From positions 1,156,540-1,215,980 of the forward strand of contig NZ_MQWB01000001.1 in the NCBI RefSeq assembly GCF_002257665.1: 59,441 nt of DNA. Reading direction: 5' to 3'. How positions within the stretch are numbered: the stretch's first letter is position 1; each line of letters starts with the position of its first letter. The notes under the pieces were generated by a model. That model made no database searches and had not been told where the DNA came from. It saw only the letters and a list, made by a program, of their open reading frames with translations. Shown piece after piece: positions 37,923 through 55,222 of the stretch. This stretch comes from Rubricoccus marinus (GTDB lineage: Bacteria > Bacteroidota > Rhodothermia > Rhodothermales > Rubricoccaceae). The position numbers and the translations under genes were made by a program.

Positions 37923-37925
37923 CCG

Positions 37926-38138
37926 ATGCGCGACCCCATCGCCGCGCTCAAAGACGCCGCGCGCGTCGCTTTCGCCAGAGGCCTCTCCGGAGTTGCCGCG
38001 GCACAAGACGCGCTTGAGGCCTCTGGCGAGCGCTCCCTCCACACGTTGGGTCTCCCGACCCTGACCGACATCGACCGCCTGCAACGGGCCGTCGCTGACC
38101 TCGACCGCGCGGCGAACTCGCTCCGCGATCGTTCCTGA
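37926..38138 (+). CDS. Small helical protein in the PHA granule cluster
   Basis: 70 residues, starting ATG at 37926, just 3 bases after the PhaR-like gene. The sequence is amphipathic helix throughout (AALKDAARVAFARGLSGVAAAQDALE, IDRLQRAVADLDRAANSL) and could coat granules or pair with the phasin. It includes two decamers (coding Ala-Arg-Gly and Ala-Ser-Gly). No named family is recognised; the short length and its place between PhaR-like and phasin genes are the main clues. Confidence 0.6.
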   Translation: MRDPIAALKDAARVAFARGLSGVAAAQDALEASGERSLHTLGLPTLTDIDRLQRAVADLDRAANSLRDRS

Positions 38139-38167
38139 ACCTGTACATCCACACAACCCCTCTAAAC

Positions 38168-38926
38168 ATGTCGACCACCAAAGAACTCACCAAAGAAATC
38201 CGCAACTCCGCTGACGTCGCGGTGACGAACGCGAAAGAGACCGTCGACTCGGTCCGCCGCGGCTTCACCGACGCTGCCGGCAACGTGAAGGACGCCGCCC
38301 AGAACGTCTTCCTCGCAGGCCTCGGCGCGCTCGTCGCCGCGAAGGAGACGGGCGAAGAGACCTTCGAGTCCTTTGTTAAGAAGGGCGAGAAGGTGGACCT
38401 CGGCACGCTCGGGACCGAGCGCGTCAAGACCATCCGCAAGCAGATCGACGGCGCGACCGACAAGGTTGAGGACGCCGTCAAGGGCCGCGTCTCCGACGCC
38501 AAGTACGTCGCCGGCGAGACCGCGAACTCCCTCGAAGACCGCGTCCAGGACGCCGTCGCGACCGTCATGAAGCGCATCGGCGTACCGACGCGTGAGGAGA
38601 TCAGCGAACTGACCGCCTCCGTAGAGCGCCTCACGGCCCGCGTCGAAGAGGTCAAGGAGGCCCGCTCGCTGGACGCTGCCGCGCCCGCCGCGTTCACCGT
38701 CGAGTCCGTCGGTGGTGGCTGGTACGAGATCAAGACCGGCGACGTGGTCGTGGACAAGGTGAAGGGCCGCAAGGCGGTCGCCGCCAAGCTCTCCGACCTC
38801 CAGGGCACGGACGAGGTCACGGTCGTCTCCGTCGGAGGTGGCTGGTTCGAAGTCCGCGTCGGCGCCGCCGTCGTCGAGAAGGTCCAGGGTGAGGAGGCTG
38901 CCGAGGAGGCCGCCGCCAAGCTCTAG
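38168..38926 (+). CDS. Phasin-like PHA granule-associated protein with C-terminal repeat
   Basis: 252 residues. The first 165 residues are amphipathic helix with the phasin signature NVFLAGLGALVAAKETGEETFESFVKKGEK (about 41-70) and a coiled-coil stretch near ISELTASVERLTARVEEVK. Such proteins coat storage granules. Residues 181-203 and 222-244 are two copies of a short beta-like module (VGGGWYEIKTGDVVVDKVKG and VGGGWFEVRVGAAVVEKVQG) not usual in phasins. Codon use is very regular, with no decamer, suggesting high expression. A strong terminator follows. Confidence 0.8.
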   Translation: MSTTKELTKEIRNSADVAVTNAKETVDSVRRGFTDAAGNVKDAAQNVFLAGLGALVAAKETGEETFESFVKKGEKVDLGTLGTERVKTIRKQIDGATDKVEDAVKGRVSDAKYVAGETANSLEDRVQDAVATVMKRIGVPTREEISELTASVERLTARVEEVKEARSLDAAAPAAFTVESVGGGWYEIKTGDVVVDKVKGRKAVAAKLSDLQGTDEVTVVSVGGGWFEVRVGAAVVEKVQGEEAAEEAAAKL

Positions 38927-38966
38927 ACGTTCTGCTTCTGGCGGCCCGTAAGCCGCCGGGACATCT

Positions 38967-39001
38967 GCCCCGGGTCGCGTTCTGCGGCTCGGGGCTTTTT
39001 T
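38967..39001 (+). terminator. Intrinsic terminator of the PHA granule cluster
   Basis: A 12-pair stem (38967-38978 with 38984-38995, including two G-T pairs), a 5-base loop and a run of six T. Just beyond, two facing decamers (39006-39016 and 39026-39036) form a second 11-base stem, which may serve the convergent WbqC-like gene. Confidence 0.9.
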
Positions 39002-39044
39002 GTGAGCCTCTGGCGCGATGCCGCGGCGCCAGAGGCGCCGAGCG

Positions 39045-39758
39045 CTAGCCGTGTTCGGGGCGGGTGGGCTCCGGCGCGGCCTCAAGCGCCAGAGGCCTGA
39101 TCGTCGTTCGCTCGCGCACAAGGCGCGCGGCGTCAGGGCCGTGGTTGAGGATGAGGTCCAGCGAGGAGCACTCCGGCACCCAGCCCTCGAAGGTCTGCCG
39201 GTAGGGCCGGTGCTCGTAGCGCAGCACGTGCGTCTCCACGCCCAGCCTCTGGCGGTCGCGCGCGGCCGAGGAGGGGAGTGCGAGCAGCGCGCCCTCGCCA
39301 GAGGCGGTCCAGATGTCTGCGAGCGAGGCCGGCGCCTCTGGCGTCTCGGACGCGACGACGAGCTGTGAGGTGGCGCCCAGCCACCGGTGCGTCCACCGCG
39401 TCGTCGCGACGGTCAGCGCGCCGAGCGAGGGCCACCGCCCTGTCAGAAGTGCCTCGACCTCGGGCAGCACGTGCTCGGCAAAGGGCGCCATCCCGTACGC
39501 AGTCCGCAAGGCGTGGACGTGCTTCCGCGCCCACGCCGTCCCGGCGATTTCCAGCGACGCCAGAGGCTGGCGCTTCCCCGTATGGACGCGGGGGATGGAG
39601 AGCCGCTGCGCGCCTGCGGCCTCGCGGATCTGCGCGCGGTTGTAGGCGGCCTGCCGCGAAAACGGGAGCGTGTCCGCGAGCACGACGCGCTCGGCGTGGA
39701 GCAGCAGCGCGGCGACCTCTGGCGTCGGGAAGAACTCGGGCGGGCGGACGGCGGTCAC
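39045..39758 (-). CDS. WbqC-like family protein
   Basis: 237 residues from GTG at 39758, preferred because translation then begins at the family N-terminus (VTAVRPPEFFPTPEVAALLLHAERVVLADTLPFSRQAAYNRAQIR); an ATG at 39851 would run into the start of the divergent cruF gene. The pattern of R-x-N-R-x-x-I, then LSIPRV, IAGTAWARKHVHALRTAYGMAPF and SSLDLILNHG matches WbqC proteins, which occur with polysaccharide genes and are of uncertain activity. Decamers are frequent (at least four). The start is not certain. Confidence 0.75.
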   Translation of the reverse strand: MTAVRPPEFFPTPEVAALLLHAERVVLADTLPFSRQAAYNRAQIREAAGAQRLSIPRVHTGKRQPLASLEIAGTAWARKHVHALRTAYGMAPFAEHVLPEVEALLTGRWPSLGALTVATTRWTHRWLGATSQLVVASETPEAPASLADIWTASGEGALLALPSSAARDRQRLGVETHVLRYEHRPYRQTFEGWVPECSSLDLILNHGPDAARLVRERTTIRPLALEAAPEPTRPEHG

Positions 39759-39834
39759 GGGCAAGGGGGGGACGGTGCGATCTTGTGGATCCCTCACCGA
39801 GGCTCGCCGTTCCCGCGCTCCCTCTCTCGCTGTC

Positions 39835-40662
39835 ATGGATTCGCGCCGCACGTTTCAACTTCTGTTCTGGCTCCTCGCCGGGACCGTCTTCTTCGCCATC
39901 GCGGGGACGCTTTCGCTCTACATCGGCCCCGTGGAGGAGTTTTTCCGCCCGTACTACCAGAAGCTGGTGGCCGGCCCGACGTGGACGTACATGGCGCTGC
40001 TCCCGCTCGTCACGCTCGCGCTGTACTGGAAGACGCTCGGCCCCTGGCGCTCCATCCTGTTCCTGCTCGCCGCGAGCCTAATCGGCGCCGGGAGCGAACT
40101 GCTGGGCACGAACACCGGCATCCCGTTCGCGCCGTACGAATACACGGACCGCCTCGGCCCCAAAATCCTCGGCGACGTGCCGTGGTTCATCCCCACGAGT
40201 TGGTACGCCCTCGCTCTGCTCTGCTACGATCTGGGTGGGCGGCTGCGGGTCGGCGTGGCGGGCCGCGCGGTCGCGATGGCCGTGTTTATGATCGTGTGGG
40301 ACGTGGCGCTAGATCCCGCGATGAACCAGGGCGGCGGCACGTTCATCTTCTGGAACTACCCGGGCGGCGGTCCCTTTTTCGGGATGCCGTGGGTGAACTG
40401 GTACGGGTGGTTCGTGACCAGCATCCTGATCTCGCTGGCGTTTGAGATGTTGGGCGGGATGAGGGCCGCGGCGGACCCGTTCGTCGCGAAGTGGGGACCC
40501 ATCGCGTACGCGCTCAACGTCTTTTTTCCCATCTCGGTCTGCCTGCTGTACGGCCTGCCTCTGGCGGGACTTATCGCCTCGGTCACGCTCGTCGTCGCGC
40601 TCGGCGTCGTGTACTGGCGGAGCCAGACGGGCGGGCCGGCCGGCCTGACGATCTACTCCTGA
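39835..40662 (+). CDS. cruF: Carotenoid 1',2'-hydratase (CruF family)
   Basis: 275 residues with about seven membrane helices, ATG at 39835. Family features are the ASLIGAGSELLGTNTGIPFAPYEYTDRLGPKILG stretch (residues about 79-112), VPWFIPTSWYALALLC, and WDVALDPAMNQGGGTFIFWNYPGGGPFFGMPWVNWYGWF with conserved acidic and aromatic residues. CruF and bacterioruberin CruF-type enzymes add water to the 1,2 double bond of acyclic carotenoid ends. It overlaps crtB (TGATG), so the two are co-translated in a carotenoid operon that would feed a monocyclic hydroxylated or glycosylated carotenoid like those known in this phylum. Confidence 0.88.
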   Translation: MDSRRTFQLLFWLLAGTVFFAIAGTLSLYIGPVEEFFRPYYQKLVAGPTWTYMALLPLVTLALYWKTLGPWRSILFLLAASLIGAGSELLGTNTGIPFAPYEYTDRLGPKILGDVPWFIPTSWYALALLCYDLGGRLRVGVAGRAVAMAVFMIVWDVALDPAMNQGGGTFIFWNYPGGGPFFGMPWVNWYGWFVTSILISLAFEMLGGMRAAADPFVAKWGPIAYALNVFFPISVCLLYGLPLAGLIASVTLVVALGVVYWRSQTGGPAGLTIYS

Positions 40663-41678
40663 TGCCGGGGGCTTCTGCCGCGCCAGAGGCTCCGCAGGCC
40701 GGTCCGCGGACGGGCCCCGGCCTCGGCGCCGCGCCCCTGCCGCCGGGGCCTCTGGCGACTCGGGCGGAGGAGGACGCGTTTTTGCGCGAGGCGTTTCGGC
40801 ACCACAGCCGCACGTTCTCGTTCGCCGCGCGGCTGCTCCCACGCCGCGTGCGCCTCCCCGTCGCGACCGTCTACCTGTACTGCCGGACGGTGGACCACCT
40901 CGCCGACGAGCGGGCCTACCGCATCGGCCGAGAGGCCGCGCTGGAAGAGGCCAGCAAGATGCGCCTGGACCTGGACGTGACCCTCGCCGGGCACCCGCCA
41001 GAGGGCGGGCCGGACGCGCTCCTCTGGCGCCGGCTCGCGGACGTGCACCGGGAGTTCGAGCTGGACCCGTTCCCGCTCCACCAGCAACTCGATGGCGCGG
41101 TCTGGGACCTGGAAGAGACGCCCATCCAGACCAACCAGGACCTGCTGGACTACTCCGACCTCGTCGCGGGAAGCGTGGGAGCCATCGTGCTTCCGTTCCT
41201 CGTCCGCGAGGGCGCGGACCGATCCGAACTGGACCGCCCCGCGCGCGCGCTCGGCGCGGCGATGCAGCTCACCAACATCCTCCGCGACGTTGGCGAGGAC
41301 ATCCGAGAGCTCGGCCGCGTGTACCTCCCAGCCGACGACTTGGCGGCCGCCGGCATCTCGCCAGAGGCGCTCAGTCGCGCCGCATCGGGCGAGACGCCGC
41401 TCGGGCCTCTGGCGCCGCGCTACGCCGCGCTCGTCGAGGGGCTGATGGAGCAGGCCGAGGCGTTCTACGACGAAGCGGACCGCGGTATCGCGAGCCTGCG
41501 CTTTAACGCCAAATGGGGCATTCGAACCGCGCTGCGCACCTACCGAGAGATCCTCAACGAGGTCCGCGCCCGCGGCTACGACAACCTCACGCAGCGCGCG
41601 TGGGTGCCGAAGCGTCGCAAGGTGCGGCTCGCCGTAGCGCCCGGGTACGCGCGCCGGCGCCAGAGGCTGAGGGGGTAG
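40662..41678 (+). CDS. crtB: Phytoene synthase
   Basis: 338 residues from ATG at 40662, overlapping the cruF stop. The first 35 residues are a Pro/Ala/Gly-rich extension partly encoded by decamers; the conserved enzyme starts at EDAFLREAFRHHSRTFSFAARLLP. Aspartate motifs are VDHLADE and NILRDVGEDIRELGRVYLP, with AMQLTNILRDVGED the standard phytoene/squalene synthase signature. It condenses two geranylgeranyl diphosphates to phytoene, the first step of carotenoid formation, while the CruF partner acts late. A squalene synthase-like role is less likely next to cruF. Confidence 0.93.
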   Translation: MPGASAAPEAPQAGPRTGPGLGAAPLPPGPLATRAEEDAFLREAFRHHSRTFSFAARLLPRRVRLPVATVYLYCRTVDHLADERAYRIGREAALEEASKMRLDLDVTLAGHPPEGGPDALLWRRLADVHREFELDPFPLHQQLDGAVWDLEETPIQTNQDLLDYSDLVAGSVGAIVLPFLVREGADRSELDRPARALGAAMQLTNILRDVGEDIRELGRVYLPADDLAAAGISPEALSRAASGETPLGPLAPRYAALVEGLMEQAEAFYDEADRGIASLRFNAKWGIRTALRTYREILNEVRARGYDNLTQRAWVPKRRKVRLAVAPGYARRRQRLRG

Positions 41679-41679
41679 A

Positions 41680-41695
41680 CCTCTGGCGCCAGGGG
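41680..41695. repeat. Degenerate decamer palindrome filling the gap between crtB and aspS
   Basis: CCTCTGGCGCCAGGGG forms an 8-pair stem (one T-G pair). The two convergent stop codons leave only 18 bases, almost all of it this palindrome. A likely shared terminator. Confidence 0.65.
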
Positions 41696-41696
41696 C

Positions 41697-43574
<1,878 letters not shown>

Positions 43575-43772
43575 CGGGCGTGCGTCTTGGATGAGGCCGA
43601 AAGCTAGACGGCCTCTGGCGAGGGAAACGCGAGAAAGAAAGGAAGAGGGGTCGGGCCCGAACGGGAGGCGGCTACGTCTGAGCATCCGCGGCGGCTGCCC
43701 GTGTGGGCTAGCCCGTGCGGGAGTATCCTCCGTGCGCTCGCCGTTCTCTTTAGATCCGATTCCTCTGTGTTC

Positions 43773-44999
43773 ATGCGCGTCTTTCTGTTCCTCCTCTGTC
43801 TGCTTCCTTTCGTCGTGGGGCCTTCTGCGAGTGCCCAGACGGATTCGCTTGCAGCAGCGGACCAGGCTCGCCTTGACGCGCTGATTGGAGCTCCCGACGT
43901 TGAAGGGCTGCGGTCATGGCAGCGGGAGGGGGACGCTCCAGATGACGTGGGCGCGCTCTTGGAGCGCGTCGATGCGCGGACGGAGGCCGGTTCTGCGGCG
44001 GTCAAGACGTACGTGCTCCAGCAGGTGCGGGTGGGCGCGTCATACACCGAAGCGCTTGCAGGCCCAACCGCCGTCCGGCTCTACCAGCGCTTTCTCGAAC
44101 TCGCGGAAGCCGAGGACTACAACGAGGCACTGGTGTACATCGAGGCCTCGCGGTACTTCCTGGTTCGGCACACCCGAAGCGTGACGGCGATTCTGGACGC
44201 GGCCCAACAAAACGTGTTCGACCTCTTGCAAGACGGTCAGTACGTGGCCGCGCGCTCGGCCCTGAACGCCGTCGAGCAGTACATGGGTAGCCGCCACCCG
44301 GATCACCGCCCGTTTATCGACAGGCTCAGCACGCAGCGCGTGATCGCAGATGCCCGACTGGAGGACGGGGAGCGCCGCGTCTCGCGCTACGAGCGAAACG
44401 AGCCCGCCATCCGGCGTGCAGGGGGCTCGGTCAAGCTCGGTGTGGCCACGCGCTCCGCGCCGGGGTCGGTTAGCCTCGCGTCAGCCGGGGGGAATCTCGA
44501 TTTCGATGGGTTCGAAGGCGGCGTCACCCTCTCGGTAAACCCCGAGGGGTTCGTCTTCCTGACCCCACGCATCGCGCTCGGCCTCGGCGGTGAACTCACC
44601 CGGGCGACGTTCGAGAACCGCGGATCGTCGGACCCCTTCCAACTCGACATCCCGATGGAGACGACGTCGATCTATGGGATGGCTCGCTACATGCTCCGGA
44701 CGACGGTCGGAGTGAGGCCTTACCTGCAGGCGGGCGTTGGGCAGTTGCGCTCCCGTCGGCGTCGAGCCTCGGGGACGTACATCAGTAGAACCACCGGCGG
44801 ACCGCTGCCCTTTACGATCCCGGAGCGGAGCGAGGTGGGCATTCAAGTGAGAGCAGCGCTGGGATTGGACTACGTAACGTGCGCGTCGTGTCCGATCTCT
44901 CTGGGAGGAGAGTTCGCCGTTCTCCGCAACTCCACCGATGACGCCCTGGTCTCACCGTGGCAAAGCGGCTTCGGCTTCCGCGCCGCGTACTCGTTCTAG
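43773..44999 (+). CDS. Secreted protein with C-terminal outer-membrane barrel, unknown function
   Basis: 408 residues from ATG at 43773, with signal peptide [22 protein letters not shown]. Residues about 25-200 are helical ([33 protein letters not shown]), perhaps a TPR-like unit. Residues about 205-408 form a small barrel of the OmpW/outer-membrane protein beta-barrel kind ([48 protein letters not shown]), ending FRAAYSF with the terminal Phe of barrels. There is no decamer in its 1.2 kb although the palindrome follows 3 bases after the stop, so the gene may be a recent arrival or under different constraint. Confidence 0.65.
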
Positions 45000-45002
45000 G
45001 CG

Positions 45003-45020
45003 GCCTCTGGCGCCAGAGGC
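45003..45020. repeat. 18-base decamer palindrome behind a stop codon
   Basis: Perfect palindrome starting 3 bases after the stop codon at 44999 of the barrel protein gene and about 80 bases before the methyltransferase start. Probable terminator. Confidence 0.7.
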
Positions 45021-45099
45021 GGGCCCAGTGTTAACCCGAGAGACCTTGTACGTCTCGGCCTCTAGCGCGAGTGGGGTCGCTCTCGCCGACACAGTCTCC

Positions 45100-45702
45100 A
45101 TGCGTGAGTACGACGAGATCGCCGGCTGGTATGCCCGCGTCCGCGATGCAAACGTGGGTGCGGTCGATGTGCTCAGCTTTGCGCGCCGCCTCCCGCCAGA
45201 GGCCCGCGTCCTCGACCTCGGCTGCGGCGACGGCGTCCCGGTCTCGCAGCTCTTGCTCCGCGAGGGCTTCGAGGTCATCGGGCTCGATAGCTCGGCGGAG
45301 ATGATCGCGCGCTTCCGGGCGCGCTTCCCCGACGTCACCGTTCGACGCGAGAGGGCGCAAGAGGCCACGTTCGCAGCCGGGGCGTTCAACGGTGTGGTGG
45401 CGTGGGGCATGCTGTTCCATCTCTCGCCAGAGGACCAGCGCGCCACGATTGAGAAGGTCTCCGGGTGGCTGGCCTCTGGCGGGCGGTTTCTGTTCACGTC
45501 AGGCGGCGAGGCGGGCGAGATTGAGGGCGAGATGGACGGGGTGCGGTTTCGCTACATCTCGCTCGGCGTGGATGGGTACCGCGAGGCCCTCGAACGCACC
45601 GGAATGCACCTGGAACGTGAGTACCGCGACGCGTGGGACAACCACGTGTACCTCGCGGTGAAACCGCTCGCGCCAGAGGCCTCCGGCGCGCAGGGTGCGT
45701 AG
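45100..45702 (+). CDS. SAM-dependent class I methyltransferase
   Basis: 200 residues from ATG at 45100 (MREYDEIAGWYARVR). Motif I is VLDLGCGDGVPVSQLL (about 42-57), the acidic residue after strand 2 is in VIGLDSSAEM, and the motif IV region is GVVAWGMLFHLSPEDQ. This is a methyltransferase-11/25 type enzyme of small-molecule class. Substrate cannot be inferred. An in-frame upstream extension overlaps the palindrome and the preceding gene and is not used. The C-terminal tail (PLAPEASGAQGA) is decamer-encoded. Confidence 0.85.
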   Translation: MREYDEIAGWYARVRDANVGAVDVLSFARRLPPEARVLDLGCGDGVPVSQLLLREGFEVIGLDSSAEMIARFRARFPDVTVRRERAQEATFAAGAFNGVVAWGMLFHLSPEDQRATIEKVSGWLASGGRFLFTSGGEAGEIEGEMDGVRFRYISLGVDGYREALERTGMHLEREYRDAWDNHVYLAVKPLAPEASGAQGA

Positions 45703-45757
45703 AAACCGCGCCGCCGCTCGCGCCGTGCCATTCCTCCCCAGCGGATGAGCCGCTTCC

Positions 45758-46876
45758 ATGATGATGACTGTTCGCCCGTTCATTTCGGCTGCTCTGATGT
45801 GCCTCGCTGCGGCGACCACGCAGGCGCAGTCTCCAGAGCCCCTAGCGCCGGGAGCCATCGAGGCGATCCGCACGCCGAGCGAGACGCACCCCCGCGTCTA
45901 TGCCGCCGGACTGTCTGCAGACGGGGAACGGGTGGCGGGCGTGGCGAACGTGGACGACCTGCTCTCAACCGACTGGCCCCCGGCCGAGTCGAGGCCGTTT
46001 CTGTGGACCGCTGGCGAGCCCGCTCAGATGGTCGCGGCGCCGGATTCGCTCGGCCTCATCCGCGCCGGTACGGAGACGGCGCTGTCCGCCGACGGGTCCG
46101 TGGTCGTGGGATCGGTGCTGCTCGTGAACCCCGATCCTCTGGCGGGACCGATGCGGATGCGTGCGTTTCGGTGGAGCGAGGGCGGTGGGTCCTCGTGGCT
46201 CCCGACGCCAGAGGCCGCTCAGTCCTACGCGCGGGCGGCCTCTGGCGACGGATCGGTCGTCCTGGGGCGCATCGCGCCTCGGTCGCCAGAGGCGAGCCGG
46301 GAAGTCCTCTGGCGAGACGGCCGGGAGGCGGCCACGATCCCTCCGCTCGAAGGGCACGCGCGCGCGGTGGCGCGCGACCTCTCGCGGGACGGCTCGGTCG
46401 TCGTCGGAGCGAGCCTGCCGACGGGTGGCTTCGACAGGGCCGCGTTCCGGTGGACCGCCGAGACGGGCTCGGTACCGATTCCCGGACTGGAGGGCTTCAG
46501 CACGTCCGAAGCGAACGCCGTGTCTGCCGACGGGCGCGTCGTGGTGGGGTACGCGTACGACGGGTCGCTCGCAAACATCTCGGAGGCCGTCGCCTTCCGG
46601 TGGTCCGAAAAAGATGGCCTCACGTTTCTGGGCGAGTGGATCGCCCGCGACGTGTCTGCGGACGGCTCGACGGTCGTCGGGTCGTATCAAACAGCCCTGG
46701 CGGTAGTCTGGACGCCAGAGGCCGGGGTGCGCTTTGCCCGCGACGTGTTCGACGCCGACGGGTGGTGGCTGATGTCCATCGACGCCGTCTCGGCCGATGG
46801 CCTGTTTGTCCTCGGCGGCGGCGAGACGCCCGACGGCACCGAGACGGCATGGCGGGGCCGGATGCCCGCCGAGTAG
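45758..46876 (+). CDS. Secreted HAF-repeat protein
   Basis: 372 residues with a signal peptide ending TTQAQ (three ATG codons in a row at 45758 leave the exact start open). The mature protein is a tandem array of about seven units with the HAF pattern: VSADGSVVVGS or a variant, then AFRWSEGGG and L, for example ALSADGSVVVGSVLL, DLSRDGSVVVGASLPTGGFDRAAFRWT, AVSADGRVVVGYAYDGS and DVSADGSTVVGSYQ. Such repeats probably form a beta-propeller. Secreted or periplasmic; ligand unknown. Its stop codon is followed at once by the 18-base palindrome. Confidence 0.75.
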   Translation: MMMTVRPFISAALMCLAAATTQAQSPEPLAPGAIEAIRTPSETHPRVYAAGLSADGERVAGVANVDDLLSTDWPPAESRPFLWTAGEPAQMVAAPDSLGLIRAGTETALSADGSVVVGSVLLVNPDPLAGPMRMRAFRWSEGGGSSWLPTPEAAQSYARAASGDGSVVLGRIAPRSPEASREVLWRDGREAATIPPLEGHARAVARDLSRDGSVVVGASLPTGGFDRAAFRWTAETGSVPIPGLEGFSTSEANAVSADGRVVVGYAYDGSLANISEAVAFRWSEKDGLTFLGEWIARDVSADGSTVVGSYQTALAVVWTPEAGVRFARDVFDADGWWLMSIDAVSADGLFVLGGGETPDGTETAWRGRMPAE

Positions 46877-46894
46877 GCCTCTGGCGCCAGAGGC
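46877..46894. repeat. 18-base decamer palindrome exactly filling a convergent gap
   Basis: The palindrome starts at the base after the TAG of the HAF-repeat gene (46874-46876), and its last base is the first base of the stop codon of the opposite LptF/G gene (46894-46896). It is therefore the whole intergenic space and a likely two-way terminator. Confidence 0.8.
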
Positions 46895-48384
46895 TAGCCT
46901 TTGCGACGCTTTGCCAGTCCCGCAAGCGTAGCGATAGGGTCGCGCCACGCCGGGTCCCGGGCCTCTCGCGCGACGAGGTAGGCGCCGATGATGCCGATGA
47001 TGACGTTCGCCGCCCACATGCCCAGCCACGGCGGGAGCAGCCCGCGGTCGGCCAGCTTCTCGCCTTGCACGAGCGAGATCCAGTAGAAGAGGAAGATGAA
47101 GACGGACAGCGTGGCGATCACGCCGACGCCCGCGCGCGGGATCGCGAGGCCGAGCGGAACGCCGACGAGCACGAAGACGAGGCAGGCCAGCGCGATGGAG
47201 TTCTTCTTGTACACCTCCACCCGGTAGCGGTCGGCCCGCTGGCGCTCCCACTGCGCGGACGATGCCGCCGCCTCGGCCGTGCTCCGCACCTCGCGCGTGC
47301 GGTCCTGCGCCAGCGCCACCACCGAGCGGCGCGTCTGCGCGTCCAAGCCGGCCAGGAGCGGCGCCTCGCCTGAGGCAACCGGCGATCCCGCCTCTGGCGC
47401 CGTGCGCTCGAGGTCTTGGGGAGACCGGTCGCGGAACGCGTACGCCTCTGGCGAGACGGCGCCAGAGGCCAGGAGCGAATCGAGGCCGGGCGCGCCGGAG
47501 GCGACGGGCCGGCCGAGCCGGAGAGCCGTAGCGCGGGCGGAGTCGGCGCGGACCCGGACCTGGGCGTCCAGCGAGTCGATCACGGCGAGCATCTCGCTCG
47601 TCAGCATCGTGCGGTCGGACCGGGCGCCAGAGGCCTCGTCGCGGCGCTCGAAGCCGAGCGAGCCGAGGTCGAAGGCGACGCGGTGGCGGTCAAAGGCGAG
47701 GCGCTCGTAGCGGTCCTCGCCGCCTCCGCGCTTGGCGTGGGCCTGACCGTTCTCGAGCAGGAGGGTAAGCCGCTGGCCGCCGTACTCGCGCTGGATCGTG
47801 GCGCGCTCAGCCGCGAGGACGGTCTGCCCGCCGCCAGAGGTCCGGCCCTCCACGACGGTCACGCCGACGAGCACGCCGGTGGAGTCTGGCGGGATGGCGT
47901 CGGCGCGGATCGCGTAGCCGTCTACGCCGGTGTAGAACACGCCGGGCTCCAGCGCGAAGGCCGGGCGCGCGGTGCTGATGTCGCGCCAGAGGGCGTTCAT
48001 GCGGTAGTTCGCCTCGGGCAGGAGGATGTTGTTGAACACGCCCATGCCGAGCACGAGAAAGACGCCCACGAGCGCCGCCGGCCACGCCAGCCGCCACAGC
48101 GGCACACCCGCACTCTTGACGACGAGGTAGGCGCGGCTCTCGGCCAGCTTCCCGAACGCCGCGAGCTGCGCGATCAGCCACGCCATTGGGACGGCCAGCG
48201 TCACCATGTACGCGAGGCTGTACGCGATCAACTCCGCCATCGCGCCGAACGGCAGCCCGCGCCCCACCAACTCCGGCAGCCACTTGATGAGGAACTGCAT
48301 CAGGAGCAGAAACATCAGCGTGCCGAACGCTGCGAAAAACGGCAGCGGCAGCGCGCGGAGAATGGCCCAATGCAGGCGCTTCAC
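46894..48384 (-). CDS. LptF/LptG family lipopolysaccharide export permease
   Basis: 496 residues from GTG at 48384 (then KRLHWAILRALPLPFFAAFGTLMFLLLMQFL, the family N-terminus). Six membrane helices are arranged three before and three after a large periplasmic domain, as in LptF and LptG. The last helices contain KKNSIALACLVFVLVGVPLGLAIPRAGVG. With LptB these proteins extract lipopolysaccharide from the inner membrane. The periplasmic part is about 100 residues longer than usual, and the extra piece (about residues 240-360) consists largely of decamer-encoded Ala-Ser-Gly and Pro-Glu-Ala segments plus a probable helix. The single gene suggests that a partner lies elsewhere. Confidence 0.88.
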   Translation of the reverse strand: MKRLHWAILRALPLPFFAAFGTLMFLLLMQFLIKWLPELVGRGLPFGAMAELIAYSLAYMVTLAVPMAWLIAQLAAFGKLAESRAYLVVKSAGVPLWRLAWPAALVGVFLVLGMGVFNNILLPEANYRMNALWRDISTARPAFALEPGVFYTGVDGYAIRADAIPPDSTGVLVGVTVVEGRTSGGGQTVLAAERATIQREYGGQRLTLLLENGQAHAKRGGGEDRYERLAFDRHRVAFDLGSLGFERRDEASGARSDRTMLTSEMLAVIDSLDAQVRVRADSARATALRLGRPVASGAPGLDSLLASGAVSPEAYAFRDRSPQDLERTAPEAGSPVASGEAPLLAGLDAQTRRSVVALAQDRTREVRSTAEAAASSAQWERQRADRYRVEVYKKNSIALACLVFVLVGVPLGLAIPRAGVGVIATLSVFIFLFYWISLVQGEKLADRGLLPPWLGMWAANVIIGIIGAYLVAREARDPAWRDPIATLAGLAKRRKG

Positions 48385-48525
48385 GGTGGGGAGGGGGGAC
48401 GGCGGAAGATCGCCTCTGGCGGACCGGCGGGCGGCCCCTCGCGCCAGAGGCGCGGGAGAACCGGGCGGGCGCAAGGCCTTCGTGCGCGCGCCCCGACGGG
48501 CTTGCCTCTGGCGCCGGCGGCCCTG

Positions 48526-49644
48526 CTACGGCACGAACGTCTGGACCGGGCTCGTGCGCGTGCGCGTGCGTGAGACGTGGAGGTCCGGGAACGCGCCCGC
48601 GATGTGCTCGGCGAGAAGGCGCTCCGTGACCCACTCCGTCTCGTAATGCCCCGCGTCGATCAGCGCCATGCGCGAGCGGCCTCTGGCGTCGAGCGGCTCG
48701 AAAAAGCGGTGGTAGGTGACGTCGCCGGTGACGAAGGCATCGGCGCCAGAGGCGAGGGCGGCGCCGAAAAAGCTCATGCCGGAGCCGCCGCAGACGGCCA
48801 CGCGCGAGATCATGGCCTCGGGCGCGGCAGAATACCGGAGCACCTCGGCCTCGGTCCCGCTCGCGACGCGCGCGAGAAAGGCGTCCAGCGCCAGAGGCTC
48901 GGGCAGCGTGCCGACGGCGCCGTAGCCGATCGTCCGGGAGCTTTGCTCGATGGCGTACACGTCGTAGGCGACCTCCTCGTACGGGTGTGCCTCCTTCATC
49001 GCGCGCACGACGGCCCCCAGCGTCCAGCGCTCCACGAGCACCTCGATCCGCACCTCGGGCTCCACGTGCACCTCGCCTCTGGCGCCGACGTGCGGCGTCG
49101 CGGCGGCGGTCGCTCGGAAGCGCCCCTCGCCAGAGGCAGAAAACGAGCAGTCCTTGTAATCCCCGATCTGTCCCGCGCCGGCCTCGGCCATCGCTTTGCG
49201 GACGCCAGCGGCGTGCGTCTGAGGCGCGAACACGACGAGCTTTTTCAACATCCCGGCCTCTGGCGCGAGCGTGGTCACGCCTTGCAGCCCGAGGAGCCCC
49301 GCGAGCGCGAACGAGACGCCGCCAAACTGCGCGTCGAGGTTCGTGTGGATGGCGGCGAACGCGATGTTCTCCTGCGCGAGTCGGAACGCGAGTGCGGGCA
49401 CGAAGCCGTCCGGCACCAGCTTTGTGAGCGGCTTGAACAGCAGCGGGTGATGTGTCACGATCATCTCCGCGCCAGAGGCGACGGCCTCGTCGATCACCTC
49501 GGGCGTGAGGTCCAGCGCCACGATCACGCGCGTGACTTCGCGTGACGGGTCGCCCACCTGGAGCCCGACGTTGTCGAAGTCGGCTTTCTGCGCCTCTGGC
49601 GCCCAGCGGTTGAGGGAGGCGACGATGTCGGCGGCGGTAGGCAT
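48526..49644 (-). CDS. NIF3/YqfO-like dinuclear metal-centre protein
   Basis: 372 residues, the length of NIF3 proteins with an inserted PII/CutA-like domain. The N-terminal part has ADFDNVGLQVGD and MIVTHHPLLFKPL with the paired His metal ligands. The insert (about 130-235) ends WTLGAVVRAMKEAHPYEEVAYDVY, and the C-terminal part has VAVCGGSGMSFFGAALASGADAFVTGD and DAGHYETEWV with further ligands. Members form hexamers; activity is debated (GTP cyclohydrolase I type 2 annotations are doubtful). It is upstream of the LptF/G gene on the same strand with a 141-base gap containing decamers. Confidence 0.93.
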   Translation of the reverse strand: MPTAADIVASLNRWAPEAQKADFDNVGLQVGDPSREVTRVIVALDLTPEVIDEAVASGAEMIVTHHPLLFKPLTKLVPDGFVPALAFRLAQENIAFAAIHTNLDAQFGGVSFALAGLLGLQGVTTLAPEAGMLKKLVVFAPQTHAAGVRKAMAEAGAGQIGDYKDCSFSASGEGRFRATAAATPHVGARGEVHVEPEVRIEVLVERWTLGAVVRAMKEAHPYEEVAYDVYAIEQSSRTIGYGAVGTLPEPLALDAFLARVASGTEAEVLRYSAAPEAMISRVAVCGGSGMSFFGAALASGADAFVTGDVTYHRFFEPLDARGRSRMALIDAGHYETEWVTERLLAEHIAGAFPDLHVSRTRTRTSPVQTFVP

Positions 49645-49675
49645 TGAGTTCCGAGTTCCGAGGTTGCGGGCGTGG

Positions 49676-49693
49676 CGCCAGAGGCCTCTGGCG
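49676..49693. repeat. Decamer pair in reverse order (CGCCAGAGGCCTCTGGCG)
   Basis: The other possible 18-base palindrome of two decamers, joined at their GGC ends rather than at the GCG ends. It lies between the MFS transporter gene (ends 49723) and the NIF3 gene (starts 49644), both minus strand, in the terminator position of the former. Confidence 0.65.
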
Positions 49694-49722
49694 ATGGCGT
49701 GGGTGGGGGCCTGCGCCAGGGG

Positions 49723-51036
49723 CTAGAGCGCGGGCGTCGCCTGGGGGCTCGCGGAGGCGACGCGGAGCGCCGCGCCTTCCTGCTCGTTCACGCGCAGCAG
49801 GAAAAAGGCGCCGATGGCGAACAAGCCCAACACGGCGGCGATCCCGGCACGCGGCGTGCCGAATGCGGCGGTCAGCACACCGAACAGGACGGGGCCAATA
49901 AAGGCTGTGGCTTTGCCGGAGAAGGCAAAAAAGCCGTAGAACTCCGTCTCCTTGTCGTGCGGCACGAACCGGCCGAGCAGCGAGCGGCTGGCCGCTTGGT
50001 TGGGGCCGCTGGCGACGCCGATCAGCACGCCCGCGCCCCACAGCCACGCCCGCGATGGGCCGAGCACCGCGATCAGCGTCGCCACGCACAGGATGCCGAG
50101 CGAGATGAAGATGGTCGTCTTGCCGCCCAACTTGTCGTCCACGAAGCCAAAGCTAAACGCGCCGATGCCGGCTGCGACGTTGAGCACGATCCCGAAAAGG
50201 AGGATGTCGCTCTCGGAGAAGCCATAGGCCGTCGCGGCGAAGATGCCGCCCATGGCGAAGACCGTGACCAGTCCGTCGTTGTAGAACAGCCGCGCGAGGA
50301 GCAGGCGGATTACCTGGCGGTAGCGGCGGATCTCGACAAACGTGTTCTTGAGTTCGCCGAACGTCGTGGCAATCAGGCCGCGCTCGCTCGGGGCGGCCTC
50401 CGCTTTGGGCTCGCGGAGGTACAGGAACGCCGGGATGGAGAACAGCGCGAACCACCCCGCGACGAGGAGGTTGGTCACGCGGACATGCTCCCCCGTGTCC
50501 TTGTCTAGGCCGAACGGCGCCACCTCGGGCATGACGAGCGCGAGCGCGAGCGCCATGCACAGCAGCCCGCCCGCGTATCCCAGCGCCCACGCCCACCCGG
50601 AGATGCGGCCGATCTTGTCCTCTGGCGCGATCTCGGGCAGGAACGCGTTGTAAAACACCTGTCCCACCTCGAAGGCGACGTTGGCGATCACGACCAGCAC
50701 GATGGCCATCCATACGTCGCCGCGTTGGGGGAAGAACAACAGCGCCGTTGTGCCGACGCAGATCACCGTCGTGATGAACAGCGCGCGTTTGCGCGTGCCC
50801 GTCCGGTCCGCCATCGCGCCTAAGAGAGGGGAGAGGAGCGCGACGAGAATCGCCGTCGGCGTCACCACGCCGAGCGACCACAGCGTCGTCCCCGTGGTCT
50901 CGTCCGGCGCGACTCCCTTGACGAAGAACGTCGCGTAGATGAACGTGATGACGAGCGTCGTAAACGCCGAGTTGGCGAAGTCGTAGAGCGCCCACGAACG
51001 GATCTGAGCGGTCTGCGAGGCGGGAGGACGGGCCAT
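49723..51036 (-). CDS. MFS transporter, UMF1/Atg22-like family
   Basis: 437 residues from ATG at 51036, with about 12 membrane helices. The first helix has WALYDFANSAFTTLVITFIYATFF, the hallmark of the UMF1 family (YD-ANSAF), and the loop between helices 2 and 3 is GAMADRTGTRKRAL. Other matches are FYNAFLPEIAPEDKIGRISGWAWALGYAGGLL and GPNQAASRSLLGRFVPHDKETEFYGFFAFSGKATAFIGP. These are probably amino acid or small-solute effluxers by analogy with yeast Atg22; substrate not known. Decamers are rare in the membrane parts. Confidence 0.92.
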   Translation of the reverse strand: MARPPASQTAQIRSWALYDFANSAFTTLVITFIYATFFVKGVAPDETTGTTLWSLGVVTPTAILVALLSPLLGAMADRTGTRKRALFITTVICVGTTALLFFPQRGDVWMAIVLVVIANVAFEVGQVFYNAFLPEIAPEDKIGRISGWAWALGYAGGLLCMALALALVMPEVAPFGLDKDTGEHVRVTNLLVAGWFALFSIPAFLYLREPKAEAAPSERGLIATTFGELKNTFVEIRRYRQVIRLLLARLFYNDGLVTVFAMGGIFAATAYGFSESDILLFGIVLNVAAGIGAFSFGFVDDKLGGKTTIFISLGILCVATLIAVLGPSRAWLWGAGVLIGVASGPNQAASRSLLGRFVPHDKETEFYGFFAFSGKATAFIGPVLFGVLTAAFGTPRAGIAAVLGLFAIGAFFLLRVNEQEGAALRVASASPQATPAL

Positions 51037-51095
51037 CGTGGAGGGCTGGGGTTCGGGCGAAGCTAGCGCCAGAGGCTGCTTTATCTTGCGGACCC

Positions 51096-51169
51096 GCCCC
51101 GGTAGCTCAGGTGGATAGAGCGACCCTCTCCTAAAGGGTAGGCCACAGGTTCGACTCCTGTCCGGGGCA
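51096..51169 (+). tRNA. tRNA-Arg (anticodon CCT)
   Basis: Full cloverleaf: acceptor GCCCCGG with CCGGGGC (51162-51168), D arm GCTC...GAGC, anticodon stem ACCCT/AGGGT around loop CTCCTAA giving anticodon CCT, T arm ACAGG/CCTGT around TTCGACT, discriminator A. CCA is not encoded. It reads AGG codons. A decamer lies about 20 bases upstream, and TATCTT (51082-51087) may be the -10. Confidence 0.97.
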
Positions 51170-51172
51170 CCC

Positions 51173-51208
51173 CGCCAGAGGCGCCTTCCGCGCACGCGGC
51201 CTCTGGCG
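51173..51208 (+). terminator. Decamer-pair hairpin after tRNA-Arg
   Basis: CGCCAGAGGC (51173-51182) and GCCTCTGGCG (51199-51208) form a 10-base stem with a 16-base loop, starting 4 bases after the tRNA. No T-run follows. Confidence 0.55.
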
Positions 51209-51236
51209 CCGATCACGCGCGACTGCTTCTCACTCC

Positions 51237-51746
51237 TTGCCTGCTGTGGACGACTTGCCTGCGTACCGCGAACTTCCACAAATCGTCGCCACGCAAGCAG
51301 AGCGGGTCCGGTTTAGATCAGGGGAGCTACTCCAGGAATGGGTTGATAAATACCCCTGGACCTTTGATCCGCACGAAGTAAGAACTGCCTTGAATCAGAG
51401 GACGGGGCATTTCTACGAATGGTTTTCGGCAGTCCACTTTTGCGAAACGATGGGTTGGAACTCTCTCATCGAGAGCTATCAGTGGAAGAACCAAACGTGG
51501 AAGCGCGGAGTGGTGAGCCGCCTCGGAGGCGACGACTTGCTTCGCTTCTTCGACACACAGCGGCGGCGCTATGGCATGCTTCACGCCCCAGACTTACTCG
51601 TCTTCGCACCCGACTTCTCGGACTACTTCTTTTGCGAAGTCAAAGGGCCCCGTGACCGGTTGCGTGATGTCCAAGTCCAGTATTTCGCTGAGGTCGCGAA
51701 GGTGAGCGGCAAGGAGATCGTGGTGCTGCCTGTAGATCTGATATAG
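51237..51746 (+). CDS. VRR-NUC / PD-(D/E)XK nuclease-like orphan protein
   Basis: 169 residues from TTG at 51237, or 166 from GTG at 51246. The C-terminal half has the nuclease pattern APDLLVFAPDFSDYFFCEVKGPRDRLRDVQVQYF, where PD, EVK and the following KGPRDRL-x-Q match the VRR-NUC fold active site (about residues 117-150). The N-terminal part is unfamiliar. The DNA is noticeably richer in A and T than its surroundings and has no decamer; codons such as ATA, AGA and TTA-type ones are more frequent. It lies alone 68 bases after tRNA-Arg, a common integration site, so acquisition by transfer is likely. Its target is unknown; such lone nucleases may act in phage defence or repair. Confidence 0.65.
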   Translation: MPAVDDLPAYRELPQIVATQAERVRFRSGELLQEWVDKYPWTFDPHEVRTALNQRTGHFYEWFSAVHFCETMGWNSLIESYQWKNQTWKRGVVSRLGGDDLLRFFDTQRRRYGMLHAPDLLVFAPDFSDYFFCEVKGPRDRLRDVQVQYFAEVAKVSGKEIVVLPVDLI

Positions 51747-51793
51747 CGCCCTCATTCGATTCTGATTTATGACTCTAGTGCTCCCGCGAGACT

Positions 51794-52849
51794 GTGCTTG
51801 ATTTCGACGTTCCTAAGTACTCCCCGCCGGTCGGCCTCGGCGGCGGCCACCGCCAGACCGTCGTGCCCTCCGTCTTCCGTGAGGTAACCGGCATCCGCTA
51901 CCGCCGCCAGCGGCTGGAGCTAGACGACGGCGACTTTCTGGATCTCGATCTCGTCCCGGCCTCTGGCGGCTCCTGGAGGGCCGCAGCCTCTGGCGCCAGA
52001 GGCGCAGGCCGGGCGTCGCACCGGGTGGTGCTGATCTCACACGGGCTGGAGGGCACGTCGGAGCGCGCGTACGTACGCGGGATGGCCAAGGCGTTCGCCT
52101 CGCGCGGGTGGGACGCCGTGGCGTGGAACCACCGTGGCTGCTCCGGCGAGCCCAACCGGCTCGCGCGGGCCTACCACAGCGGCACGACCGAGGACCTCGC
52201 GGCCGTCGTGGACTGGGCGCTCGCCAGAGGCTACGCGCACCTCGGGCTGGTGGGCTTCAGCTTGGGCGGGAACGTGACGCTGAAGTACGTGGGCGACGCA
52301 GGGGAGGCCATCGCGCCGGAGATCGTGGGCGCGGTCGGGATCTCGGTTCCGGTGGACCTCGCGGGATCGGCGGAAACGATGAAGGCGCTGGACCGGCGGT
52401 TGTACATGAAGCGCTTTATCGGCTCGCTCGCGAGCAAGGCCGAAGAGAAGGCGCTCCGGTTCGAGGACGCGCCGGACCCGGAGCCCATCCGCGCGATGAC
52501 CTCGTTTGCCGAGTTCGACGCGCACGTGACCGCGCCGCTGCACGGGTTCGAGTCCGCGGAGGACTACTGGGCGCAGAGCTCGGCGCTCCCGGTCCTCGAA
52601 CGCGTCGCGGTCCCGACGCTGCTGCTCAACGCGCGCAACGACCCGTTTCTCGCGCCGTCGTGCTTCCCCGAGGATCTCGCCAACCCGCTCGTGCGGCTGA
52701 TCGCGCCAGAGGAGGGCGGCCACGTCGGGTGGCCGCAGCGGCCTCTGGCGGGCGAGCTGTGGGACGAGACCGTCGCGGCGCGGTGGTTGGAAGCGGCCTA
52801 CGCCGCGTCCTCGGCGTCCAAGAGCGCCGCGCCGTCCTCGACGGCGTAG
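51794..52849 (+). CDS. Alpha/beta hydrolase, YheT-like
   Basis: 351 residues from GTG at 51794. The N-terminal GLGGGHRQTVVPSVFR motif, HGLEGTSERAYVRGMAKAF oxyanion region, WNHRGCSGEPN, nucleophile elbow GFSLGGN (Ser156), acid in LLLNARNDPFL and catalytic His in EEGGHVGW together define the YheT/ABHD1-3 type hydrolases (esterase/lipase-like). A loop near residues 55-75 (PASGGSWRAAASGARGAG) is made of three decamers and looks like an extra insertion. The last 52 bases overlap the end of the convergent glutamine amidotransferase gene. Confidence 0.88.
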   Translation: MLDFDVPKYSPPVGLGGGHRQTVVPSVFREVTGIRYRRQRLELDDGDFLDLDLVPASGGSWRAAASGARGAGRASHRVVLISHGLEGTSERAYVRGMAKAFASRGWDAVAWNHRGCSGEPNRLARAYHSGTTEDLAAVVDWALARGYAHLGLVGFSLGGNVTLKYVGDAGEAIAPEIVGAVGISVPVDLAGSAETMKALDRRLYMKRFIGSLASKAEEKALRFEDAPDPEPIRAMTSFAEFDAHVTAPLHGFESAEDYWAQSSALPVLERVAVPTLLLNARNDPFLAPSCFPEDLANPLVRLIAPEEGGHVGWPQRPLAGELWDETVAARWLEAAYAASSASKSAAPSSTA

Positions 52850-53571
52850 AGCAGGAGCCAGCGGCGCAAGAGGTCGTCCGCATGCGGGGACGGTTTGAGC
52901 GCGTCCAGCGCGGCCTGGAACACGGCGTCGTCCTGCATCTCCGGGTAGTGATCGCGGTAGGCGAACAGCCTCTGGCGCTCGGTGTGCTCGTCGAGCTCGC
53001 TGTGGAACTGCGTGCCATAGATGGGCAGGCCGTCCATGCGAAACGCCTGGTAGGGCGCCACCTCGTTGGTGGCGAGCTCGGTCGCGCCAGAGGGGAGGAC
53101 GCTCACGCGGTCGTGGTGGCCCATCTGCGTGGCAAAGCGGCGGGGCAGCGAGCCCATGAGCGGGTCGGCCTCGCCGGCTTCGGTGAGCTCCACGTCCACC
53201 GTCCCCATCTCCGCGCGCTCGGGGTCATTGATGACGGTCCCGCCAAAAGCACGTGCTACGAACTGGTGGCCCCAGCAGGAGCCGAACAGCGGGAGCTCTC
53301 GGTCGGCGCTGGCCTGGCAGAGGTCGATGAGGTCCTGGGTCCAGCGGTACGTCTCGGTCACGGAGTACGCGCCCGCGCCGCCGATCATGAGCGCGTCCAC
53401 GTCGTCCAGCAACGCTGGCGCCAGAGGCTCGGAGAGCGCATCGGTGATGAGGAGCTGGTCCCGGCGCATCTGCGCGCGCGCGCAAAAGCTGGCCTGCTCT
53501 TCCTCGATGATGTCGGGCTTCTCGCGGATCTGGACGAGGCGGACGCGGAGGCGGTCGTGGCTGGGGGCCAT
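52798..53571 (-). CDS. Class I glutamine amidotransferase
   Basis: 257 residues from ATG at 53571. The nucleophile elbow is FGSCWGHQ with Cys99; the catalytic His-x-Glu is in GTQFHSELDEH. LMIGGAGAYSVTE and the QMGHHDRVSVLPSGATELATN region match stand-alone GuaA-like amidotransferases, which hydrolyse glutamine or related gamma-glutamyl compounds. It overlaps the end of the hydrolase gene by 52 bases, tail to tail, so both C-termini use the same DNA. Several decamers occur, for example coding Pro-Leu-Ala-Pro at residues 49-52. Substrate unknown. Confidence 0.87.
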   Translation of the reverse strand: MAPSHDRLRVRLVQIREKPDIIEEEQASFCARAQMRRDQLLITDALSEPLAPALLDDVDALMIGGAGAYSVTETYRWTQDLIDLCQASADRELPLFGSCWGHQFVARAFGGTVINDPERAEMGTVDVELTEAGEADPLMGSLPRRFATQMGHHDRVSVLPSGATELATNEVAPYQAFRMDGLPIYGTQFHSELDEHTERQRLFAYRDHYPEMQDDAVFQAALDALKPSPHADDLLRRWLLLYAVEDGAALLDAEDAA

Positions 53572-53640
53572 AAGCGTGGGAGAGCGGAAACGGTGCGCAA
53601 GATCGTCGGTTGACGCCGAGCGCACCTCCGACGATCCCTC

Positions 53641-54333
53641 ATGCCGCTCCTCTCCGTCCGCGACGCCGGCCGCCGCATCCCCGACCGCTGGCTGTGGCGT
53701 GGACTCTCGTTCGAGGTGGATGGGGGCGAACGCGTCGCCATTGCAGGCCCGTCGGGCTCGGGGAAATCGCTGCTGCTCCGCGCGCTGATCGGGTTGGACG
53801 ACCTGGACGAGGGCACCGTCTCCGTGGACGAGAGGCCTCTGGCGGACTGGCACCTGCCGGATCTCCGCATGCGCGTGCGCTACGTGCCGCAGTCGCCGGC
53901 CTTCGCCGATGGGACCGTGCGTGACGCGCTGTCGGGTGCGCGGGCGTTCGCGGCGGCCTCTGGCGCCGCGCCAGAGGCCTGGGCAGTGGAGCGGCTTGGA
54001 CGACTCGGGCGCGGCGCGGGCTTTCTCGACGCGCGCACGGAGACGCTCTCGGGCGGCGAGGCGCAGATCGCAGCACTCCTCCGCGCGATGCAGAGCGGTC
54101 CGCACCTCTTGCTCTTGGACGAGCCCACGGCCAGCCTGGACCCTGACGCGACCGATGCCGTCGAGCGCCTCGTCTCGGACTGGCTGGACGAGGACGGCGC
54201 CCGCGCCGCCATCTGGACGAGCCATAGCGAGGAGCAGCGCGCGCGCGTGGCAACCCGCGTGGTCGACCTCGGCACCGCCATACCGGCGCCAGAGGCCTCT
54301 GGCGAACGCGCCACCGAGACCGCCGCACTCTGA
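53641..54333 (+). CDS. ABC transporter ATP-binding protein (FetA/YbbL-like)
   Basis: 230 residues. Walker A is GPSGSGKS (36-43), the Q-loop is in VRYVPQSPAF, the signature is LSGGEAQ and Walker B is LLLLDEPTASLD. Paired with the UPF0014 permease encoded next (TGATG overlap), it forms a FetAB/YbbLM-type exporter, linked in E. coli to iron homeostasis and oxidative stress resistance. The helical subdomain contains a decamer-encoded AAASGAAPEAWAVERL segment and the C-terminal tail is made of decamers too (PAPEASGERATE). msrA, another oxidative stress gene, follows the pair. Confidence 0.9.
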   Translation: MPLLSVRDAGRRIPDRWLWRGLSFEVDGGERVAIAGPSGSGKSLLLRALIGLDDLDEGTVSVDERPLADWHLPDLRMRVRYVPQSPAFADGTVRDALSGARAFAAASGAAPEAWAVERLGRLGRGAGFLDARTETLSGGEAQIAALLRAMQSGPHLLLLDEPTASLDPDATDAVERLVSDWLDEDGARAAIWTSHSEEQRARVATRVVDLGTAIPAPEASGERATETAAL

Positions 54334-55124
54334 TGGACACGATCGACATCGGCTTTGGCCAACTCGCGCTCGGGGCGTTGCTGCTGGCGGTCAACCTCGG
54401 GCTGTCGGTCGCGCTCCGGCTGGGGCTCGCGAAAGACCTGGTCATTGGCGCGGCGCGGATGACGGTGCAGCTCCTGCTCGTGGGGCTCGTGCTGGACTGG
54501 GTGTTCGCGTCGGAGAACGCGTGGCTGATCCTCGGCATCGCCACGGTGATGGCGGCGCTGGCGGGTCGCGCGGCTGTGAACCGGACCGTTCGGCGCTACC
54601 CCGGGATTCTGTGGAACGCGCTCGTCGTCATCCTGGGCGCTTCGTTTCTCGTGACCGGCGCGACGGTCCTCGGCATCCTGCGCGTGGAGCCGTGGTTCGA
54701 CCCGCAGTACCTCATCCCGCTCCATGGGATGTTGCTTGGCAACGCGCTCAACGGCATCTCGCTGGGGCTCGACCGGTTCATGGAAGGCTGCGCCAAGGAT
54801 CGCCCTCTGATCGAGACCCGCCTCGCGCTTGGCGCGACGCGGTGGGAGGCCGCGCGGCCTGTGGCCAAAGAAGCCATCCGAACCGGTATGATCCCGGTCG
54901 TCAACTCGATGATGATCATGGGCCTCGTAAGCCTACCGGGCATGATGACCGGCCAGATTCTCGCCGGTGCCGATCCCGCGCAGGCGGTCCGGTACCAGAT
55001 CCTGATCATGTTCATGATCGCCTCGTGCGTCGCGCTCGCCACCGGCGGAGTGGTCGCGCTGGCCTACCGCGCGCTGTTCTCGCCTCGGCACCAGTTGCGG
55101 AGCGAGAAGCTGCGCCGCGCGTGA
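54333..55124 (+). CDS. ABC exporter permease (FetB/YbbM-like, UPF0014)
   Basis: 263 residues from ATG at 54333, overlapping the stop of the ATPase gene. About seven membrane helices. Conserved parts are LVGLVLDWVF, MLLGNALNGISLGLDRFMEG, ALGATRWEAARPVAKEAIRTGMIPVVNSMMIMGLVSLPGMMTGQILAGADP, of which the GMMTGQILAG segment is the family hallmark, and VRYQILIMFMIASCVAL. With the ATPase it should export a metal or metal complex. No decamer within the gene, but the 20-base palindrome starts right after its stop codon. Confidence 0.92.
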   Translation: MDTIDIGFGQLALGALLLAVNLGLSVALRLGLAKDLVIGAARMTVQLLLVGLVLDWVFASENAWLILGIATVMAALAGRAAVNRTVRRYPGILWNALVVILGASFLVTGATVLGILRVEPWFDPQYLIPLHGMLLGNALNGISLGLDRFMEGCAKDRPLIETRLALGATRWEAARPVAKEAIRTGMIPVVNSMMIMGLVSLPGMMTGQILAGADPAQAVRYQILIMFMIASCVALATGGVVALAYRALFSPRHQLRSEKLRRA

Positions 55125-55144
55125 GGCCTCTGGCGCCAGAGGCC
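55125..55144. repeat. 20-base decamer palindrome directly after the FetB stop codon
   Basis: GGCCTCTGGCGCCAGAGGCC starts at the base after the TGA at 55122-55124. Probable terminator of the ABC operon. Confidence 0.75.
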
Positions 55145-55222
55145 GGCCGGCGCGAAGACAGTGCGGAGGCAGAATCACCGAGAACCGCCGGGCGTTAGCA
55201 CGCCAAACACCCCCTGATTCCC

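Follow-up and report, generated by a model that had tools for sequence, protein, structure and literature searches.

The decamer CGCCAGAGGC is probably a self-DNA uptake word that works like the DUS and USS of Neisseriaceae and Pasteurellaceae, a reading to which our analysis assigns a probability of roughly 0.7 and which claims likeness to these systems rather than membership. The reading is based on a strand-balanced excess of the decamer, mutually exclusive words in related genomes, turnover of the individual sites, depletion on other replicons and the presence of transformation machinery. In the window, i.e. the whole stretch of 59,441 nucleotides (1..59441), the decamer occurs 205 times, 110 times on the plus and 95 times on the minus strand, in coding as well as intergenic DNA. 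The 4.43-Mb genome that holds the window (G000, with C1 as its chromosome contig) carries 14,176 copies, 7,127 and 7,049 on the two strands, against 61 copies of the reversed control, giving a genome-wide density of about 3.2/kb; as for DUS and USS, thousands of copies are found on both strands, far above chance. The 18-base palindrome formed by two overlapping copies is present 873 times in exact form, while its reversed control is absent, and matches with at most three mismatches number 34 against 0.11 expected. In viral contigs this palindrome is lacking.

We looked for corresponding words in eight relatives (G001-G008) by k-mer counts and whole-genome searches. No more than 99 copies of CGCCAGAGGC occur in any of the 113 other genomes of the order. 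Two other words take its place: CCGCCAGCG has 3,973 copies in G004 (reversed control 614) and 3,889 in G008 (575), and CCGCCTCGG has 4,084 (reversed control 459), 3,300 (241) and 2,523 (304) copies in G005-G007, both words being balanced between the strands. Across these six genomes of the family, the three words are mutually exclusive, each present in 2,500 to 14,000 copies and near background where another word dominates, which is the pattern of lineage-specific dialects known from DUS and USS. None of the three words shows a comparable excess in G001-G003. The words also cross genus labels, with G004, assigned to the genus of G000, using the same word as G008, and other members of the genus of G008 using CCGCCTCGG.

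The sites themselves turn over between species. Of 59 aligned decamer sites of G000, none has been retained, and eight have the relative's own word in place or close by, about four times the approximately 3.6% at random positions, although these are small numbers. In G004 and G008, enrichment past stop codons and in facing pairs is seen for the word CCGCCAGC as well. At orthologous stops the words can be seen to be swapped: gene 54333-55124 ends in TGA GGCCTCTGGCGCCAGAGGCC in G000, whereas its orthologue in G004 ends in TAG CGCGTCCGGCTGGCGG...CATCCGCCAGCGCGG, with that genome's own word as a facing pair past the stop. Similarly, for the window site 49676..49693, G004 has its own word in facing orientation after the counterpart of gene 49723-51036.

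Copies are scarce on the other replicons of G000. C10, C11, C14 and C15, which have similar G+C and are presumably plasmids, carry 0.63, 1.0, 0.33 and 0.10 copies/kb, respectively, against 3.7/kb on the chromosome, and these low densities fit a slow accumulation of the word on resident DNA. C11 contains a chromosome-like block at 70-130 kb. The short contigs C2-C9, C12 and C13 appear as N throughout in the sequence used. On C14, the relatives' word CCGCCAGC occurs 55 times against 16 expected, as if the replicon had come from a host with that dialect.

The chromosome also encodes transformation machinery, as expected for a DUS or USS: ComEC, DprA, an HHH_3/ComEA-like protein, PilB and PilC, together with a single gene run that comprises a PilT-like ATPase (score 317.9, just under the curated cut-off of 319.1), a weak PilN match and a secretin. 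Genes for ComEC, DprA and ComEA-like proteins are present in many genomes without uptake words. When we searched for a pilin receptor, N_methyl matches were obtained only on C11, where the word is scarce. Three consecutive small proteins with an N-terminal hydrophobic (TM) segment and without any Pfam or NCBIfam match are encoded at C1:690215-693389, upstream of the PilT-like gene, and we consider them receptor candidates. A second set resembling a pilus or type II secretion system, with two N_methyl proteins, a secretin and an ATPase, is located at C11:12898-21258.

The distribution of the decamer was analyzed in a main sample (C1:1-800,000) and in a replication stretch (C1:2,000,001-2,400,000, 400 kb) for which the predictions were fixed beforehand. 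The statistics thus cover 1.2 Mb from a single species, together with smaller samples from its relatives. Genes were called by an in-house codon model, whose stop positions are more reliable than its approximate starts. The main sample contains 2,966 copies, balanced between the strands, at 9.4/kb in noncoding against 2.8/kb in coding DNA. Pairs within 40 nt are predominantly facing (495, against 79 in tandem), and 286 of the facing pairs (58%) overlap by two bases, 177 as GCCTCTGGCGCCAGAGGC and 109 as CGCCAGAGGCCTCTGGCG. Overlapping tandem pairs are entirely lacking in the main sample, where simple arithmetic from the pair counts would give about 15. Roughly two thirds of the copies sit outside facing pairs. 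In coding DNA, the word imprints on the proteins the tripeptides ASG (640 in the 800 kb), PEA (496), PLA (372), ARG (272), RQR (118) and xLW (46), an order that is identical in the replication stretch.

Part of the pairing follows from the word itself. Because its ends are CG and GC, a facing pair may have two bases in common, which makes it 16-fold easier to form than from copies that stay separate. On a combinatorial estimate that presumes an even background at 10-40 nt, about 68 coding pairs are expected at d=8 and 92 were found, whereas the noncoding pairs at this distance number 65 and 139 against about 26 and 38 expected; for the GCCTCTGGCGCCAGAGGC type, the ratio is approximately 3.6 in noncoding and 1.1 in coding DNA. 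Combinatorics therefore accounts for most coding palindromes, and the intergenic palindromes, which exceed it 2.5 to 3.6 times, are favored by something further.

Facing pairs are enriched right after stops, 15-fold over the chromosome and 3.5-fold over noncoding DNA, and inverted pairs concentrated at gene ends are also a feature of DUS and USS. The first 20 nt hold 13.4 pairs/kb past convergent and 7.9 pairs/kb past co-directional stops, whereas divergent gaps have 1.5 and coding DNA 0.30. The sequence-only reading had proposed a genome-wide test of whether palindromic pairs cluster within 20 bases past stop codons; in the main sample, 94 of 286 noncoding pairs do so, against 27 ± 5 under an even noncoding spread. 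About 18% of genes have a decamer that begins precisely where the stop codon ends or overlaps its last base. Among 587 genes, GCCTCTGGCG is found at offset -1 in 47, where it has the G of TAG in common with the stop, and at offset 0 in 36, and CGCCAGAGGC is found at offset 0 in 22, against about five at each offset from 14 nt on. This spike was not seen in the smaller samples of G004 and G008. An uptake word by itself would not predict it, and it counts against the uptake reading. A residual-spacer model, in which deletion spares only the words, is insufficient, as the first 20 nt past convergent stops are 32-38% decamer even in gaps >250 nt, and an extended motif that includes the TA of TAG was rejected because TA does not precede the word elsewhere.

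The window illustrates these arrangements (palindromes are given without strand). The perfect 18-bp palindrome GCCTCTGGCGCCAGAGGC at 46877..46894 fills the whole gap between two convergent genes, beginning 0 bases past the TAG of the plus-strand gene 45797..46876; its last C doubles as the opening base of the CTA with which the minus-strand gene 46894..48384 stops. The former gene (359 aa, without Pfam match) is an in-house call whose existence is backed by codon statistics only; the latter encodes an LptF/LptG family protein of 496 aa, to whose end the orthologues of G004 and G008 align within 0-4 residues. The same palindrome lies at 29058..29075, 0 bases from the stop of the minus-strand gene 29076-30389, and at 45003..45020, 3 bases past the stop of 43947-44999, and a 20-bp palindrome at 55125..55144 adjoins the TGA of 54333-55124. 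All these sites had been pointed out from the letters alone, with stop distances that proved right, together with 41680..41695, which lies between convergent genes at 1 base from each stop and is a degenerate palindrome with one T.G pair rather than a perfect one. They are a selected subset. The window has nine exact palindromes, four of them at 0-3 bases from a stop, three elsewhere in intergenic DNA and two in predicted genes, namely at 11071..11088 in 9951-11198, hence not a 3'-end element, and at 51986..52003 in 51794-52849. It also has two palindromes of the opposite overlap type CGCCAGAGGCCTCTGGCG, of which the one at 49676..49693 is intergenic.

The strongest alternative is that the pairs are selected chiefly as a U-independent element at transcript 3' ends, REP-like or acting after Rho-dependent termination, whose hairpin marks the mRNA end or shields it. 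Clustering past stops, a decamer excess there at every gap size, the noncoding surplus of palindromes and hairpins that fold at about -11 kcal/mol would all be in accord with such an element. Nevertheless, it leaves unexplained the copies outside facing pairs, the copies in coding DNA, the species-specific words and the strand balance, and the stop-boundary spike is also formed by single decamers. We regard it as an unlikely, if respectable, explanation of the pairs.

It seems improbable that the decamer is a HIP1-like word or the binding site of a methylase, a nucleoid protein or a chromosome segregation factor, unrelated to uptake. The cyanobacterial HIP1 octamer has a high, even and strand-balanced density, which the present word shares, and a dimer could bind the facing pairs. 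However, this 10-mer is not palindromic, it is in excess in noncoding DNA, and other words replace it in other species. Words of the Chi or KOPS kind should be strand-biased, and no consistent bias appeared across 20-kb bins of the 800 kb, so this candidate was rejected.

The sequence-only reading had further taken facing decamers to act as terminators, with the geometry of DUS/USS terminators. If they were DUS-style intrinsic terminators, their location at gene ends would be explained, and the share of gaps that hold a pair indeed falls from convergent (72%) over co-directional (49%) to divergent (31%). The full geometry is found at 23034..23067 on the plus strand, 17 bases past the stop of 21796-23016, where the arms 23037-23046 and 23055-23064 make up a 15-bp stem of -31.8 kcal/mol followed by TTGCTTGTTTTG; this looped pair with its T-rich tail, as originally described, is likely a true intrinsic terminator. 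Among the post-stop looped pairs in the order GCCTCTGGCG..CGCCAGAGGC, seven of 36 have U-tracts (defined as at least 4 T in 8 nt) against a background of 3.4%, and several hairpin-plus-U terminators have decamers in both arms.

For the majority of pairs, the data point the other way. A hairpin after the stop is present, but a U-tract directly past the stem is a feature of a looped minority. The five nucleotides 3' of post-stop overlapping palindromes contain 0.68 T, against a noncoding expectation of 0.79, and those of looped pairs contain 1.07; the tail-to-tail pairs of Neisseria have 3.18 T in five bases (PMC1852404). U-tracts accompany only 15 of 270 post-stop pairs (5.6%; 12/181 in the main sample and 3/89 in the replication stretch), compared with 3.4% at random post-stop positions. 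Twelve of these 15 lie >12 nt from the stop, whereas 163 of the 255 U-less pairs lie at ≤12 nt (Fisher p 0.0015), inside the ribosome footprint, and stems this near would be covered by a ribosome pausing on the stop codon (reviewed in PMC7858274). Nor are the pairs kept out of coding sequence, which contains about 42% of them (209/495 in the main sample and 93/222 in the replication stretch), whereas only three intragenic hairpins are reported for N. meningitidis (PMC1852404). A general association of pairs with U-tract terminators was not found at convergent ends, where a hairpin plus U occurs at 15% of ends with a pair and at 14% of ends without any copy.

The T content, the distance split and the coding share together indicate two populations, a few DUS-style terminators and many U-less palindromes that abut the stop, the latter with stems of 7 bp that touch the stop codon or lie very close to it. 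Looped pairs that have a U-tract, most of them separated from the stop by about 15 nt or more, are a minority that looks like genuine intrinsic terminators. Thus the gene-end clustering and the likeness to DUS/USS that had been noticed at the outset hold, as does the terminator geometry for this minority, and a terminator function is not supported for most sites. As a general account of the facing decamers, we find intrinsic termination distinctly improbable.

These observations were reproduced in the replication stretch. The facing excess, the absence of tandem overlaps, the stop-boundary spike, the background T content of the palindrome tails, the share of about 40% coding pairs, the balanced strands and the order of reading contexts all held, as did the distance split, which rests there on three U-tract pairs. 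That the word is a mobile or REP-like repeat which has multiplied by copying, to which the high copy number and the palindromic pairs might point, is hardly credible, given that there is no longer unit, that the sequence flanking the ten bases is not strongly conserved, that copies occur in six reading contexts and that words at gene ends are swapped in place between species.

For an uptake word, the following mechanism may be envisaged. A surface receptor of a type IV pilus/ComEA/ComEC route would prefer DNA that bears the word, and through transformation and recombination the word would be written again and again into the resident chromosome, at the places where it costs least. The first bases past a stop codon would be a preferred landing place, where facing copies are tolerated or favored. 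Given the surplus of intergenic palindromes, the hairpin may have acquired an additional role in the transcript, at mRNA 3' ends, e.g. in protection from 3'-exonucleases. Taken as a whole, the proposal that self-DNA uptake with three or more dialects has arisen outside Neisseriaceae and Pasteurellaceae, using a receptor that is not related to ComP and, in one species, the densest known word set doubling as a stop-abutting, U-tract-free hairpin at mRNA 3' ends, is tentative and stands at somewhat less than even odds.

The best-documented uptake words come from two families of proteobacteria. Dialects in another lineage, if true, would provide an independent case for how words spread, switch and choose their sites, and the three matched words offer a route to the receptor by co-variation. 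The word would mark self against foreign DNA in these genomes, as the low-word replicons illustrate. In addition, the U-less palindromes abutting stops make a clean test of whether a word kept for uptake can take on a role at mRNA 3' ends and still not turn into an intrinsic terminator. Our literature search found no report of these words, most subscription papers being outside its reach; in two competent Riemerella species and in Flavobacterium johnsoniae, a k-mer survey gave weak candidates only (PMC7965970).

Judged by the features that sequence can test, the pattern agrees with DUS and USS in all but the nature of the pairs. With the neisserial DUS dialects it shares a non-palindromic word of about 10 bp in thousands of copies equally divided between the strands, mutually exclusive words within one family, inverted pairs at gene ends and the absence of tandem neighbors, which are nearly absent in known USS genomes as well (PMC1852404). 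It differs from them in its lineage, in the many pairs in coding DNA and in its density of 3.2/kb, the highest density reported for Neisseriaceae dialects in 2013 being 5,918 copies in 2.4 Mb (PMC3630211). Moreover, most pairs overlap here by two bases, many abut the stop and most are without a U-tract, whereas Neisseria DUS pairs are mostly non-overlapping (PMC3630211); no ComP-like receptor was found, and the likeness in uptake is by analogy. The Pasteurellacean USS (AAGTGCGGT) is likewise a genome-wide word with balanced strands and facing pairs at some terminators, but the present word is unrelated in sequence, shows no A/T extension and has far more copies. HIP1 (GCGATCGC) of cyanobacteria (cited in PMC1939737) resembles it in a very high, even density over coding and noncoding DNA, although HIP1 is palindromic and the present unit is not, and the latter is strongly over-represented between genes and past stops. 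Finally, intrinsic (Rho-independent) terminators are matched by the looped minority, with its stem and U-tract past the stop, in contrast to the U-less majority at or near the stop.
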